Assembly: GCF_004322775.1 (NCBI RefSeq)
Contig: NZ_CP036403.1
Location: 2,170,001-2,234,000 of the forward strand
Reading direction: 5' to 3'
DNA from: Ornithinimicrobium sufpigmenti
GTDB taxonomy: Bacteria; Actinomycetota; Actinomycetes; Actinomycetales; Dermatophilaceae
Length of the DNA: 64,000 nt
Below the pieces are notes generated by a model. It ran no database searches and was not told the origin of the DNA. It saw only the letters and a program-made list of their open reading frames with translations. The translations under genes were made by a program, and so were the position numbers. Position 1 is the first letter of the stretch, and every line of letters begins with the position of its first letter. This document shows, in pieces, positions 20,602-30,850 of the stretch.

Positions 20602-22179
20602 CTAGAGGACGCCGACCACCTGGACCAGGACGATCTTGACGATGATCCCGAGGGCGAAGAGCGCCGCATAACCGGAGTCGATCCGCTCGTCCGTGCACCG
20701 GCCGTTCGCGTAGGCCAGGATGGCCGGCTGTCCGACGAACCCGGCCAGCGCCCCGGCGGTGCGCGGCGGGCTGATCCCCACGCCGCGACCGACGAGCACC
20801 ATGAGCCCTGCGCCCACGCCGACGGTCAGCGCAGCGAGCACCGCCGTGCGCAGGCCGAGCAGGGTGAACGCCTCCGCCGCGAACGCCTGCCCGGCGGACA
20901 GACCGGTCGCGCCCAGGAAGATGAGCAGCCCCAGCTGGCGGATGGTGAGGTTGGCCGGCAGCGGCAGTCCCCAGACGAGGGGACCGGTGCGCTCCAGCCG
21001 GCCGAGCACCATACCGATGACGAGGGGACCGGCCGCCGAGCCGAGGGCGAGGCTGACGCCGCCCGGCAGCGGCAGGGTGACCAGCCCCACCGCCAGGCCG
21101 AGCGCCAGCCCGACGCCCAGGGAAAAGGCGTCGATCTCGCTCACGCTGCGCTCGGAGTCGCCCAGGAGCCTGCTCACGTCCCGCAGCCGGCCCCGGGGGA
21201 CGACGACCCGGACCCGGTCCCCGAGCTCGAGCGTCAGGTCGTCGTGCGCCAGCAGGTCGAGGTCGCCGCGGCGCACCCGGGTCACCACACCCTCGACGCG
21301 GGTGGGCAGGTCGAGTTCGCCGATCGTCCGGCCCGCCGCGTCCTTGCTGGAGACGAGGAAGCGGCGGTAGTCGACCTCCCTGCGGTCGTGCGCGAGGTGC
21401 TCGTCGACCCGGTGGCCCAGGTGGTCGGCCGTCGCCCGGACGGCCTGCTCCGGTCCGACGACGACCACCCGGTCACCGGTCCGCATCTGCTCGTGGTCGC
21501 CGACGACGCGCGTCTGTCCGTCGCGACGCAGGTAGGAGAAGCGCACCGAACCGTCGGCGGCGCCGGGCACGTCCCGCAGGGGCCCCGGGCGGGTCACCTC
21601 GACGCTGATGTCGATCAGACCCTCGCCCGCCGCGGAGGCGCTGTCCCGGGGGGTGGGCCAGGACCGGTTGATGATCGCGGCGACGACGAGGATGGTGACG
21701 ACCACCCCGACGGGGTAGGAGATCGAGTAGCCGACCGCCGGCTCCTGGGTGCCGGCCTGGGCCGCCGCGGCCGCCAGCGCCGGGGTCGAGGTCAGGGCAC
21801 CGGCGTAGGACCCGGCGGCGAGGGCCGGCGACAGCCCCAGCAGGCGCGCACCGAGGACAGCCGCGCCGGTGACCACCACGAGCACCACGACGGCCCCGGC
21901 CATCAGCGGCAGCTGCCGACGCAGGTCCCGGAAGAAGCCGGCCCCCGCGGCGACACCGACGGTGTAGACGAACAGGGCCAGTCCGAGGGTCTGCACCAGC
22001 CCGAGCCCCTCGCCCAGCCGCGGGTCCAGCGCACCGACCGCCAGGCCGACGAAGAGCGCACCGGCGGGCCCGAACCGGATCGGGCCGAAGGGGATCGTCC
22101 CCACGACTGTGCCGACCGCCAGCACGAGCATGATTGTCAGCAGCTGGTTCTCGGCCAGGACGTCGAGCATGCAGGCCAT
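20602..22179 (-). CDS. AspT/YidE-YbjL duplication-type transporter
   Basis: The 525-residue protein has the layout of the aspartate:alanine exchanger family: about five membrane segments (residues 8-175), two RCK C-terminal (TrkA-C) domains at roughly 190-350 (GPLRDVPG, MRTGDRVVVVGPEQAV and DLPTRVEGVVTRVRRGD, ELGDRVRVVVPRGRL), then a second membrane block ending in VKIVLVQVVGVL. Both membrane halves carry family patterns GSYAGALTSTPALAAA and GISPPRTAGALAGFVGQPAILAYA. The substrate is unknown. The start is uncertain: ATG 22179 and ATG 22170 are both possible. Confidence 0.85.
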   Translation of the reverse strand: MACMLDVLAENQLLTIMLVLAVGTVVGTIPFGPIRFGPAGALFVGLAVGALDPRLGEGLGLVQTLGLALFVYTVGVAAGAGFFRDLRRQLPLMAGAVVVLVVVTGAAVLGARLLGLSPALAAGSYAGALTSTPALAAAAAQAGTQEPAVGYSISYPVGVVVTILVVAAIINRSWPTPRDSASAAGEGLIDISVEVTRPGPLRDVPGAADGSVRFSYLRRDGQTRVVGDHEQMRTGDRVVVVGPEQAVRATADHLGHRVDEHLAHDRREVDYRRFLVSSKDAAGRTIGELDLPTRVEGVVTRVRRGDLDLLAHDDLTLELGDRVRVVVPRGRLRDVSRLLGDSERSVSEIDAFSLGVGLALGLAVGLVTLPLPGGVSLALGSAAGPLVIGMVLGRLERTGPLVWGLPLPANLTIRQLGLLIFLGATGLSAGQAFAAEAFTLLGLRTAVLAALTVGVGAGLMVLVGRGVGISPPRTAGALAGFVGQPAILAYANGRCTDERIDSGYAALFALGIIVKIVLVQVVGVL

Positions 22180-27195: not shown

Positions 27196-29319
27196 ATGGC
27201 GAAGAAGGCGCGCAAGGATCGCGGGACGCTGAGCAGTGGGCAAGTCGTCTCCTACGCGCTGGGAGACGTCGCGAACAACCTGACGTTCCTGATGACCTCG
27301 ATGTTCCTCATGGTCTACATGACCGACATCGCCGGTCTGTCGGCCGGCGTGGCCGGCACCATCTACGGCGTCACCAAGATCTGGGCCGGCGTCGCCGACC
27401 TCATCGCCGGTCAGACCGTCGACCGGTTCGACACCCGCTGGGGCCGCCTGCGCCCGTGGTTGCTCTTCGGCAGCACCCCGCTGGCCATCGTCTTCGTGCT
27501 GCTGTTCAGCGTGCCCGCGGGGCTGAGCCCCACCCTGACGGTCGCCTGGATCTTCCTGCTCGACGCGCTCTTCCAGCTCGCCTACTCCTTCGTCAACATC
27601 CCCTACGGCTCGCTGTCGGCCGCGATGACGCAGGACTCGGTGGACCGGTCCAAGCTGTCCGGAGCCCGGTCGATCGCCAGCGCCCTGACCGGTGTGCTCC
27701 TCTCGGCGGTCGTCGCCCCGCAGTTCAACGACACCAGCGGCGACAACGTCCGGCTCCAGTTCACCCTGACCACGGCCGCGCTGGGCGTGCTGGCGGTCGT
27801 GCTCTACCTCATCTGCTTCAAGAACAGCAAGGAGGTCGTGCCGCGCAGCGCGACCAAGATCTCGTTCAAACGCACCCTGACGATGATCCGGCACAACCGG
27901 CCGCTGATCGTGCTGTGCCTGGCCGCCTTCTTCCTGCTCGCCGCGATCTTCACGATGAACGCCGTCGGGCTGTACTACGCCCGGTACGTCCTCGGCAACG
28001 CCGGCTACTTCACCTTCCTCGCGCTGGCCCAGACGGTCGGCACGGTGCTGATCGCCTCGCTCGTCCCGGGCATCACCACCCGCTACGGCAAGCGCAACGG
28101 GTACATCGGGGCCTCGATGGTCATCATCCTGGCCTTCGTCCTCGTCTACTTCGTGCCCGAGGGCAACCTGGCCATCGGCATCCTGGCCTGGTTCCTCATG
28201 GGCATAGGGTCCGGCGGCACCAACGCGCTGATGTTCTCCATGCAGGCCGACACGGTCGACTACGGCGAGTGGAAGACCCGGCTGCGGGCCGAGGGCGGCT
28301 CCTACTCGATCCTGTCCTTCATCCGCAAGTGCGGCCAGGGTATCGGCGGCTGGGCGGCTGCCGCCCTCATCGGCGCCTTCGGGTACGTGGGCCAGGCCGA
28401 GACCCAGACCGACAGCGCGATCGAAGGGATCCGGCTGGCCACCGGCGTGCTTCCCGCGGGCCTGGCGGTGCTCGCCATGATCATCATGTTCTGGTACAAC
28501 CTCGACGGCGACGAGCACCGCAGGATCGTGCGCGACCTCAACTCCCGCCGCTCCGCCGGTGCGGTCAGCACCTCGTACGGCGTCGACACGGATCGGGTCA
28601 AGATCCCCGCCCTCGGCGACTCCCGCGACCTGCTGCTGAGGCCGCGGGACCGAGGCACCCTGCCGGTGGTGACCATCTTCGAGCGGGAGGGCGCCGGCGC
28701 CTCGGACATCGGGCCCGCCGTCGCCAAGGAGCTCGGGGTGAAGTGGGTGGACCAGGCGTTCAGCTCCGACCAGGTCGCCGAGGTGGACACCCGTGCGCTG
28801 TTCTCCGACAGCGCCTTCCAGCGCTGGCTGCGCACGCTGTCCTACACCGGCACGCAGGACGCCGACCTAGCCCGTGCGCGGGACGTGGCCGAGGACCACT
28901 CGCTGGCCGAACGCAACCGGCTGGACCTGCTCACGCTGGCGCGGGACGGCGCGGTCATCCGCGGCCGCAACGGGGCCTACGTCCTGGGTCGGGCGGTCGG
29001 CTCGCTGCACGTCCGGCTGACCGCTCCGATGGAGATGCGGATCGAACGGGTCATGCACAAGACCGGTCTGGAACGGCACGCCGCCGAGTCCCGGATCGCC
29101 GTCGAGGACCGGGTGCGGGCCGAGATGTCCAAGAACCTCTACCAGTGGGACCCGCACACGGACGAGTCCTACGACCTGGTCATCAACACCGGGACCGTGA
29201 CCTACAAGCAGGTCGTCGAGATGATCGTGGCCTACTACCGCAGCAAGTACCCCGAGACCGACCCGGCGGCGGCGAGCCAACCGACGGCGGACGACCCGAC
29301 GGACGCCTCACCTTCGTGA
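27196..29319 (+). CDS. GPH-type sugar symporter fused to a cytidylate-kinase-like domain
   Basis: The 707-residue protein joins two families. Residues 1-450 are a twelve-segment glycoside-pentoside-hexuronide:cation symporter (MelB-like) with SGQVVSYALGDVANNLTF, DRFDTRWGRLRPWLLFG, NIPYGSLSAAMTQD and DYGEWKTRLRAEG. After a linker, residues 488-690 resemble the cytidylate kinase-like family (Cytidylate_kin2): EREGAGASDIG at 496-506 replaces the usual Gly-rich P-loop, VIRGRNGAYVLG at 587-598, and MEMRIERVMHKTGLERHAAESRI, ending in YDLVINTGTVTYKQVVEMI. The P-loop lacks the canonical GK[ST]. It could couple sugar uptake to nucleotide sensing or phosphorylation, but that is inference. Confidence 0.88.
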   Translation: MAKKARKDRGTLSSGQVVSYALGDVANNLTFLMTSMFLMVYMTDIAGLSAGVAGTIYGVTKIWAGVADLIAGQTVDRFDTRWGRLRPWLLFGSTPLAIVFVLLFSVPAGLSPTLTVAWIFLLDALFQLAYSFVNIPYGSLSAAMTQDSVDRSKLSGARSIASALTGVLLSAVVAPQFNDTSGDNVRLQFTLTTAALGVLAVVLYLICFKNSKEVVPRSATKISFKRTLTMIRHNRPLIVLCLAAFFLLAAIFTMNAVGLYYARYVLGNAGYFTFLALAQTVGTVLIASLVPGITTRYGKRNGYIGASMVIILAFVLVYFVPEGNLAIGILAWFLMGIGSGGTNALMFSMQADTVDYGEWKTRLRAEGGSYSILSFIRKCGQGIGGWAAAALIGAFGYVGQAETQTDSAIEGIRLATGVLPAGLAVLAMIIMFWYNLDGDEHRRIVRDLNSRRSAGAVSTSYGVDTDRVKIPALGDSRDLLLRPRDRGTLPVVTIFEREGAGASDIGPAVAKELGVKWVDQAFSSDQVAEVDTRALFSDSAFQRWLRTLSYTGTQDADLARARDVAEDHSLAERNRLDLLTLARDGAVIRGRNGAYVLGRAVGSLHVRLTAPMEMRIERVMHKTGLERHAAESRIAVEDRVRAEMSKNLYQWDPHTDESYDLVINTGTVTYKQVVEMIVAYYRSKYPETDPAAASQPTADDPTDASPS

Positions 29320-29358: not shown

Positions 29359-30087
29359 ATGATGGGGCACGGGACGGTCCGGCACGGGCTGCGCAGCAGG
29401 GGAGTGGTGGTCATCGGTGCGGGGCTCATCCTGCCGCTCCTGCTGGCTGCGTGCGGCGACGGGGCAGGCGCCGGCACCGGCGACGACGCCGGCAGTCGCA
29501 GTGACGTGGCGACCGCGGTGGACGCGTCGGCGGAGGCCGACGGGGTGCCCGAGCTGCACCAGGCGGTGCTGGCGGACGACCACGACCGGGTGGTGGAGCT
29601 GCTCGCCGGCGGTGCCGACCCCGACGAGACCGGGCCGGACGGCGCCACCGCGCTGCACCTGGCGGCCTTCAGCAGCAACCCGGCCCACCTGACCTCCCTG
29701 CTGGAGGCCGGTGCCAACCCCGACGAGCCGCATGCGGTGACGGGCGCCAGCGCGCTGGACCAGGCGGTGCTGAACGCCACCGACGAGCCGTTCTACCTGC
29801 TGCTGGAGGCCGGGGCGGATCCGGCTGTGACGGACAAGAACGGCGGCACGCCGCTGCACACCGCCGCCCGCACCAACGCGGGGTGGGCCATCCTGGCGCT
29901 GCTGGAGGCTGGCGCGGACCCGTCGGCCGAGACCGGCGGCCGGACCTTCCAGGACGACTACTGGGGCTACAACCCGGCGATCCTCAACGACCGGGCGCGC
30001 ACGGAGCGGGCCCAGCTGATCGAGTGGCTGGAGGCGCACGACATACCTGTCGACCCCCGCGCCGGGCAGTTCCGCGAGGAGGGTTGA
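29359..30087 (+). CDS. Ankyrin-repeat lipoprotein (first of two)
   Basis: The 242-residue protein has a lipoprotein signal ending in LPLLLAAC with C32 as the lipidated residue, a Gly/Asp spacer, then four or five ankyrin repeats from about residue 64 (DGATALHLAAFSSNPAHLTSLLEAGANPDE, NGGTPLHTAARTNAGWAILALLEAGADPSA). The C-terminal cap FQDDYWGYNPAILNDRARTERAQ is shared with the next gene. It should sit on the outer face of the membrane and bind a protein. It ends one base before the second ankyrin gene. ATG codons at 29359 and 29362 are both possible. Confidence 0.88.
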   Translation: MMGHGTVRHGLRSRGVVVIGAGLILPLLLAACGDGAGAGTGDDAGSRSDVATAVDASAEADGVPELHQAVLADDHDRVVELLAGGADPDETGPDGATALHLAAFSSNPAHLTSLLEAGANPDEPHAVTGASALDQAVLNATDEPFYLLLEAGADPAVTDKNGGTPLHTAARTNAGWAILALLEAGADPSAETGGRTFQDDYWGYNPAILNDRARTERAQLIEWLEAHDIPVDPRAGQFREEG

Positions 30088-30088
30088 G

Positions 30089-30850
30089 GTGCGCGTCTGG
30101 ACCATGGCGATGAGTGTCCTGCTGGCGATGACGGTGTCGGCCTGCCAGCTCCTGGGCGGTGGCGGCACCGGCAGGGACGTGACGCAGCACTTCGACGACG
30201 CCTCGGCGCAGGAGCTGGCGCGGGCCGTCTCCAGCGGCGACCGTGACGGCATCCGCGACCTGGTCGCGGCCGGCAGCCCGGTCGACGCGGTGGGCAAGGA
30301 GGGCGTGACGATGCTGCAGTGGGCGGTCTTCGAGGGTCAGCACGGAGCCCTGTCCACGCTGCTGGACCTGGGGGCCGACGTCGAGCAGCACGGGCTCGGC
30401 GGGTCGACCGTGCTGCACACCGCAGCCCAGGCGCCGGACGTGTGGTTCCTGGACACCCTGCTCGAGACCGGGGTCGACCCTGATCTGAGGCACGCCGTGA
30501 CCGAAGAGACCCCGCTGCAGGCCGCGACGGGGATGGGCACGGACGAGAACTTCAGGCTGTTGCTGAAGCATGACGCCGACGTGCGGCTGGCCGACCGCAA
30601 CAGGACCACGGCACTGCACCTGGCGGCCATGCTGAACGCCGGCAGCCAGGTCCTGGCGCTCCTGGACCGGGGCGCGGACCCCCTGGCCGTGGACCGGGTG
30701 GGCGCCACCTTCCAGGACTACTTCTGGACCACCAACCCCAACATCATGCACGACCGGGCCCTGCGCGAGCGTCGCAAGGTCGCGGACTGGCTCACCGCTC
30801 GGGACATCCCGCTGCACGAGGACGCCGCCTGGCAGAAGGACAAGTCCTAG
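30089..30850 (+). CDS. Ankyrin-repeat lipoprotein (second of two)
   Basis: This 253-residue paralogue of the preceding protein has a lipobox TVSAC with C19, and ankyrin repeats from about residue 45 (EGVTMLQWAVFEGQHGALSTLLDLGADVEQ, NRTTALHLAAMLNAGSQVLALLDRGADPLA). The C-terminal cap is again FQDYFWTTNPNIMHDRALRERRK. Start is GTG one base after the upstream stop, with GAGGAGG just before. The pair probably arose by tandem duplication and may form a heteromer or bind two forms of one ligand. Confidence 0.88.
   Translation: MRVWTMAMSVLLAMTVSACQLLGGGGTGRDVTQHFDDASAQELARAVSSGDRDGIRDLVAAGSPVDAVGKEGVTMLQWAVFEGQHGALSTLLDLGADVEQHGLGGSTVLHTAAQAPDVWFLDTLLETGVDPDLRHAVTEETPLQAATGMGTDENFRLLLKHDADVRLADRNRTTALHLAAMLNAGSQVLALLDRGADPLAVDRVGATFQDYFWTTNPNIMHDRALRERRKVADWLTARDIPLHEDAAWQKDKS

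Follow-up and report, generated by a model that had tools for sequence, protein, structure and literature searches.

What is a kinase-like domain doing at the end of a sugar symporter? The question is raised by a single gene at positions 27196 to 29319, forward strand, of a 64,000-nucleotide stretch of the Ornithinimicrobium sufpigmenti genome (contig NZ_CP036403.1, positions 2,170,001 to 2,234,000; hereafter the window). Its frame runs uninterrupted from the ATG at 27196 to the stop at 29319, has no internal stops and encodes 707 amino acids. An initial annotation, made from the DNA letters, had described the product as a twelve-segment symporter fused in frame to a cytidylate-kinase-like domain, and the motifs that it listed, EREGAGASDIG, VIRGRNGAYVLG and YDLVINTG, are all present in frame. 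We favour, tentatively and just short of an even call, the explanation that the protein is a beta-glucuronide/hexuronide symporter with a cytosolic, probably non-catalytic kinase-fold tail that most likely regulates transport. The domain composition and the link to uronides are well supported; regulation and the ligand are what we infer. The gene is laid out as follows, with NMP standing for nucleoside monophosphate.

27196–29319, forward strand: whole fused gene, UidB-type GPH symporter plus Cytidylate_kin2, 707 aa; open frame with Pfam and NCBIfam matches
27196–28578, forward strand: 12-helix GPH symporter, residues 1–461
28579–28665, forward strand: linker, residues 462–490; low model confidence, evolves faster
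28666–29247, forward strand: Cytidylate_kin2 (PF13189) domain, residues 491–684; NMP-kinase fold predicted

Pfam searches placed MFS_2 (PF13347) at residues 19–437 (E 5.8e-87, 292.4 bits, cut-off 27) and Cytidylate_kin2 (PF13189) at residues 491–666 (E 7.9e-29, 101.5 bits, cut-off 28), and the NCBIfam GPH model TIGR00792 scored 377.6 bits against a cut-off of 231.35, so that both family names given initially stand. None of the five Pfam matches of the 707-aa protein up to E 1 was a phosphotransferase system (PTS) family. The PF13189 domain ends at residue 666 by the hidden Markov model and at about residue 684 by the predicted fold. In the full-length structure model (mean predicted local distance difference test, pLDDT, 77.9), 12 helices of at least 20 residues lie between residues 14 and 431, in agreement with the twelve segments proposed. 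The linker has pLDDT block means of 53–69 and residues 531–565 are also modelled at low confidence; the relative placement of the two domains in this model is not usable, as pairwise error was absent from the output. The C-terminal domain was folded and fold-searched on its own. Against five relatives, with which the C-terminal domain shares 73–78% identity, the ratio of nonsynonymous to synonymous substitution was 0.22–0.31 for the symporter, 0.23–0.32 for the C-terminal domain and 0.30–0.77 for the linker (30 codons), showing that both domains are held by similar purifying selection and the linker less so. GC content at codon position 3 is 0.97 in the symporter, 0.93 in the linker and 0.95 in the kinase-like domain.

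The same architecture of symporter and PF13189 was found in 57 of the 60 proteins matched by residues 470–707 (the query being one of the 57), with Ruania, Ornithinimicrobium, Knoellia, Tessaracoccus, Pseudactinotalea, Corynebacterium and Trueperella among the named sources, and each of the five fused loci that we read is one frame without stops. A frame error at the junction and a missing Cytidylate_kin2 match, either of which would have refuted the initial reading, are thus both contradicted, and we consider the fusion and both family assignments near certain. Not all of the fused proteins have database names; examples of those given are 'glucuronide carrier protein', 'cytidylate kinase family protein' and 'GPH:cation symporter'. 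The architecture is already in databases under these source names, and we found no paper describing a symporter-PF13189 fusion in the open-licence PubMed Central (PMC) literature.

Sequence comparison assigns the symporter to the UidB (glucuronide) type. It shares 40% identity with Escherichia coli UidB over 443 aa, and N27, N28, N134, G138, R158, S374, R377 and K378, which by alignment are equivalent to or next to the sugar site of MelB, are identical in UidB and the fused proteins compared; at these eight positions, the residues of two glycoside-type GPH proteins (L131 and L134) are R, D, D, W, A, P, N and K. Positions 64, 159 and 343 differ from UidB, e.g., Ala64 (Asp in UidB) and Asn343 (Met in UidB). 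D55 and D59 of MelB are cation-site acids. The equivalent of D59 is D68, invariant in 49 aligned rows, and that of D55 is Ala64 in 4/4 fused proteins compared and Gly in 2/3 symporters of the L026 type. Because alanine occupies the D55 place, sodium coupling appears unlikely and proton coupling likely. No GPH symporter of comparable strength occurs elsewhere in the host genome, where the next match has 43.9 bits vs 294.4. It has one beta-glucuronidase (855.6 bits against a cut-off of 544; 58% identity to that of locus L064) and one glucuronate isomerase (68% identity). The latter lies far from the fusion in a hexuronate locus (L120; G000:C1:1522000-1541000), which also holds a LacI-like regulator, TRAP-transporter-like genes and a UxuB-like gene, names that we read from the sequence. 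It is quite probable that the carrier moves uronides.

The link to uronides is strengthened by a split form of the system, new here: PF13189 also occurs as a separate gene beside UidB-type symporters, in several cases with beta-glucuronidase or hexuronate genes. Neither the split form nor the uronide link was visible in the window itself when it was first annotated. Neighbouring genes were called with a simple script, and names given below without a family score were read from sequence. At L019, L020, L021, L104, L026 and L031, a stand-alone PF13189 gene of about 200–220 aa lies on the same strand just 5' of a UidB-type symporter, separated from it by 40 or 52 bp depending on the start (L019), 41 bp (L020), 30 bp (L021), 35–74 bp (L104) or 7 bp (L031), or overlapping it by 4 bp (L026). 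The gene order at L064 is PF13189, beta-glucuronidase, symporter, the middle gene being assigned by NCBIfam (882.8 bits vs a cut-off of 544), and at L024, on a short contig, a PF13189 gene stands beside a beta-glucuronidase gene. L019 has genes for a beta-glucuronidase, a UxaC-like isomerase and a UxuB-like protein within 10 kb; L020 and L021 have UxaC- and UxuB-like genes and GH3, the L021 neighbour being a glucuronate isomerase by NCBIfam (535.7 vs 387 bits). The UxuB-like and GH3 neighbour proteins matched several NCBIfam models, all below cut-off. An origin of the fusion from a stand-alone gene running into its neighbour is unlikely: the stand-alone gene lies 5' of the symporter and the fused domain is C-terminal.

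The association also holds across the 149 genomes of the family. GPH models scored over cut-off at 29 places in 25 genomes; at two of these places the symporter is fused to PF13189 and at five a PF13189 gene lies beside it. Beta-glucuronidase scored over cut-off in 15 genomes. UidA over cut-off was present in 6/7 genomes with a fused or adjacent pair vs 9/142 others (Fisher p 2.4e-6, a value that ignores kinship and counts two genera twice, G050/G082 and G020/G066). Of the 29 GPH places, 24 were examined: sixteen are of the UidB type by identity, seven of them with a PF13189 domain, and eight are of other types, none of them with one. In surveys with the fusion's own domain as query (alignment A1), fused genes were found in 2/149 family genomes (the host and G147), 2/297 order genomes (the host and G733) and 1/394 class genomes (the host), weak partial matches in other long frames not being counted. 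The eight other genomes of the genus had no match to the fusion's domain, and none reached the beta-glucuronidase cut-off (two weak matches, six none). In a second family, PF13189 matches of all types pooled occurred in 219/341 genomes.

Phylogenetic trees of the two halves disagree. In the symporter tree (12 of the 57 fused, 7 adjacent and 14 other proteins; L133, L136 and L140 unused), the fused proteins form one clade (support 100/100), sister to the symporters of L026, L031 and L064, with support of 87/99 that changed to 100/98.6 without five far rows; the tree was rebuilt with 28 rows after two very long branches had been seen. A further clade (100/100) unites L019–L021 with L104, and a constraint that placed the fused symporters with the L019 type was rejected (approximately unbiased test, p-AU 0.005). 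In the kinase-like tree (12 of the 57 fused and 23 others, with L022 and L106 as long branches), the fused domains join L019–L021, L104 and stand-alone relatives (100/100), and a constraint that placed them with L026, L031, L064 and L024 was rejected (p-AU 2e-5). L022 nests inside the fused group of this tree, and the fused domains are therefore not strictly one clade. The disagreement between the trees implies either more than one pairing of the partners or a swap of the domain.

If the carrier is a uronide symporter, is the attached domain an enzyme? Three sites in the domain bear on this.

28690–28713, forward strand: P-loop position GAGASDIG, residues 499–506; Ala502 aligns with the Walker-A lysine of the host Cmk
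28963–28971, forward strand: GRN, residues 590–592; GRD in the host Cmk, whereas other PF13189 proteins mostly have GRA or GRG
29185–29190, forward strand: NT, residues 664–665; DT in the host Cmk, Asp in 14/17 other PF13189 proteins

The residue alignment, with the host's own Cmk as reference, covered the 57 fused proteins, 120 stand-alone close relatives listed out of 211 matches and 17 other PF13189 proteins. The Walker-A lysine was present in 0/57, 0/120 and 0/17, respectively, and it is missing in the solved PF13189 structures 3hdt (Clostridium symbiosum) and 3fdi (Eubacterium ventriosum), the closest solved relatives by sequence and fold. Since none of the 194 aligned sequences has the lysine, its absence is a trait of PF13189 and not of the fusion; the non-canonical loop pointed out initially is real, though not special to this protein. 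Other positions set the fusion's clade apart: Gln520 is found in 177/177 of its members (Arg or Lys in 17/17 other PF13189 proteins), Asn592 in 176/177 (Ala, Gly or Ser in the others) and Asn664 in 175/177 (mostly Asp in the others, as listed). The Gln520 and Asn664 changes lean towards a non-catalytic role. Arginines are retained in the fused proteins (R591 in 56/57; R615, R618 and R641 in 57/57), and a kinase fold that keeps these arginines and lacks the lysine looks like a ligand-binding pseudo-kinase. That the domain is a true cytidylate kinase was rejected: the genome has a separate Cmk (locus L003, read from sequence), and the match at L002 looks like CoaE. In PMC8756737 and PMC9848294, a 'cytidylate kinase-like' gene appears only as a list entry.

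A regulatory, non-catalytic role of the tail, which we judge about evenly poised, is suggested by analogy with the IIA domain of LacS. In the mechanism that we propose, the UidB-like GPH symporter would import beta-glucuronides or related hexuronides, probably coupled to protons, and the retained arginines of the C-terminal kinase-fold domain would hold a nucleotide or a phosphorylated metabolite. The ligand-bound domain would then act on the carrier as a switch or a fine control, in the manner of IIA in LacS. Here we infer the substrate, proton coupling, ligand binding and regulation, and the NMP-kinase fold is a prediction.

Several observations weigh against this explanation. The best NCBIfam match of the symporter, the UidB glucuronide transporter model PRK09848/NF007353, reaches 450 bits and stays below its equivalog cut-off of 528, and the replacement of the MelB D55 equivalent makes the coupling uncertain. 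At L013, L014, L015 and L102, four of the seven other fused loci, a GH3 gene (Pfam for L013) rather than a beta-glucuronidase gene lies directly behind the fusion, so that the substrate may be another glycoside; the window fusion has no GH3 gene directly behind it, and the closest host-genome relative of GH3 lies elsewhere (45% identity). Nine of the 16 UidB-type places in the family lack PF13189 in the surrounding DNA examined, several of them beside UidA or UxaC and two (L127 and L129) on short contigs, and the domain is therefore not needed for uronide function in general. Conversely, PF13189 genes of the same subclade occur without a symporter in the surrounding DNA examined at L018, L022, L023, L029 and L103, and the fusion is patchy and rare. 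Asn also occupies the 664 place in 3/17 other PF13189 proteins and in 3hdt, which speaks against reading it as a mark of non-catalysis. In one symporter tree, a branch without firm support (86/85) separates all domain-linked symporters from the rest, and one old partnership with a later domain swap is as possible as several pairings. Finally, a ligand or regulation of any PF13189 protein was not found in the open-licence PMC literature.

The strongest rival is a structural or docking role, in which the domain senses nothing and instead gives the carrier stability, determines where it lies or how it oligomerises, or keeps a hydrolase (UidA or GH3) at the carrier exit. Glycosidase genes directly behind the fusion at L013, L014, L015 and L102 and between the two genes at L064 would fit such a role, as would the conservation of the domain although catalysis looks unlikely. 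A scaffold, however, would presumably not need the invariant polar positions, which lie within the loop, GR and arginine motifs shared with the nucleotide-binding CMP kinase, and we think this role unlikely while giving it some weight.

A catalytic domain, in which PF13189, a kinase whose loop is unusual, would transfer phosphate to a nucleotide or to the imported sugar acid and so couple uptake to the first metabolic step, seems to us distinctly improbable. The Walker-A lysine is missing throughout the alignment, the subclade differs from the other 17 PF13189 proteins at further positions, and the domain misses the CMP-kinase cut-offs (TIGR02173, 31.2 vs 102.1 bits; PF02224, 11.3 vs 26). Moreover, the first step of the known hexuronate route needs no kinase, and the host genome encodes its enzyme, UxaC. 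Even further down stands a nucleoside or nucleotide carrier whose domain takes part in nucleotide salvage: the nearest named enzymes in the fold search are CMP kinases, and in one protein (P0238) PF13189 is combined with the nucleoside hydrolase domain PF01156, but the symporter resembles UidB both along its sequence and at the binding site, and the linked genes in several relatives encode glycosidases and hexuronate enzymes, which leaves this reading very little room. An artefact, i.e., a frame error or misassembly joining two neighbouring genes, has practically no chance, because the two domains share one chain in 56 other proteins (57/60 in all) and the five fused loci have intact frames.

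PF13189 is not confined to GPH carriers. Among the 67 proteins matched by the domain of P0058 (itself included), 55 list the major facilitator family MFS_1 (PF07690) together with PF13189, a count that excludes the GPH fusions and P0236; two of the 55 also list PF13347. P0058 has PF13189 at its C-terminus, and because the kinase-like tree places its domain with the general type, the MFS_1 fusion is probably independent. Some of these proteins (P0058, P0181–P0235) are named 'MFS family permease/cytidylate kinase'. A broader proposal would make PF13189 a sensor module, a kinase fold converted to regulation, that serves secondary transporters in general: UidB-type GPH carriers would have acquired it as a tail or, in two lineages of the domain, as a separate subunit, and MFS_1 carriers would have acquired it too. 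In uronide carriers its signal would be a nucleotide of uridine or cytidine, with UDP-glucuronate and UMP as possible candidates, and glucuronide uptake would thereby be tied to the nucleotide-sugar state of the cell; this we regard as rather doubtful. That PF13189 is always linked to a transporter was rejected, as a GPH match occurred in only one of the 20 class-survey loci (L063–L082; L064), and none was found at L025, L027, L028, L033 or L107–L110.

General-type PF13189 genes lie recurrently by gatC/gatA-like genes (names from sequence) in one part of the family (L027, L028, L033, L107, L108, L109, L110). At L065, L066, L067, L069, L071, L078, L079 and L080 they precede a gene holding PSVSYSITVRLE or similar, whose product we take to be malic-enzyme-like; this arrangement, mostly behind a thioredoxin-like gene, occurs in a family with large genomes. 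At L106:6842-10204, a stand-alone PF13189 gene directly precedes a 913-aa amino acid permease plus iron-containing alcohol dehydrogenase protein, itself an odd fusion and a further case of PF13189 beside a transporter, and L105:6950-7360 holds a partial PF13189 match with an internal stop, probably a decayed copy. In the second family, PF13189 matches in frames of 758–977 aa (G788:C15, G822:C109, G823:C254 and G861:C57) may be further fusions or chance long frames.

In the window, two tandem ankyrin-repeat proteins with lipobox-like starts (29359–30850, forward strand; read directly) follow the fusion on its 3' side. The initial annotation was right that they adjoin it, and the proximity is not conserved: neither this pair nor four other window neighbours gave a tblastn match (E 1e-3) in the seven other fused loci. 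Because of this, the neighbours look incidental to the fusion, and the ankyrin lipoproteins were rejected as part of the system. At 20602–22179, reverse strand, the window encodes an Asp-Al_Ex permease with a TrkA_C domain, another transporter with a regulatory-type soluble domain.

PF13189 has no assigned function in the papers that we found in the open-licence PMC literature, and its name implies an enzyme. Its pairing with one type of transporter, by fusion and by neighbouring genes and in two branches of the domain tree, gives it a concrete and testable role, in bacteria that appear to use glucuronides. A regulatory role, if true, would account for the persistence of a kinase-like fold that lacks the usual lysine.

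How does the fused protein compare with known systems? Its domain resembles 3hdt and 3fdi in lacking the Walker lysine and, for 3hdt, in the Asn at the Asn664 place; at the Gln520 place 3hdt has Asp and 3fdi Lys (aligned through L064). Unlike the fused domain, both stand alone, under titles that give no function. Cmk differs in having the Walker lysine and GRD where the fused domain has Ala502 and GRN, and the fused domain falls below the Cmk family cut-offs. P0058 and its relatives (MFS_1, EmrB/QacA-type by source names) carry a C-terminal PF13189 alike, whereas their carrier is not GPH. UidB (GusB), the glucuronide:H+ symporter of E. coli K-12, has the same eight site residues, and relatives of the fusion are linked to beta-glucuronidase; unlike the fused protein, UidB has 457 aa and no C-terminal domain (L141). 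The closest parallel in layout is LacS, the lactose permease of Streptococcus thermophilus, which we take to be a GPH member and in which, as in the fusion, the carrier is followed by a cytosolic C-terminal domain. In LacS this domain is IIA, whereas in the fusion it is PF13189 with a predicted NMP-kinase fold. If our explanation is true, GPH carriers would have, in addition to the PTS IIA tail known from LacS, a second means of bringing their own control domain, and what is new here would be a GPH carrier with a built-in, putative control domain of another kind.

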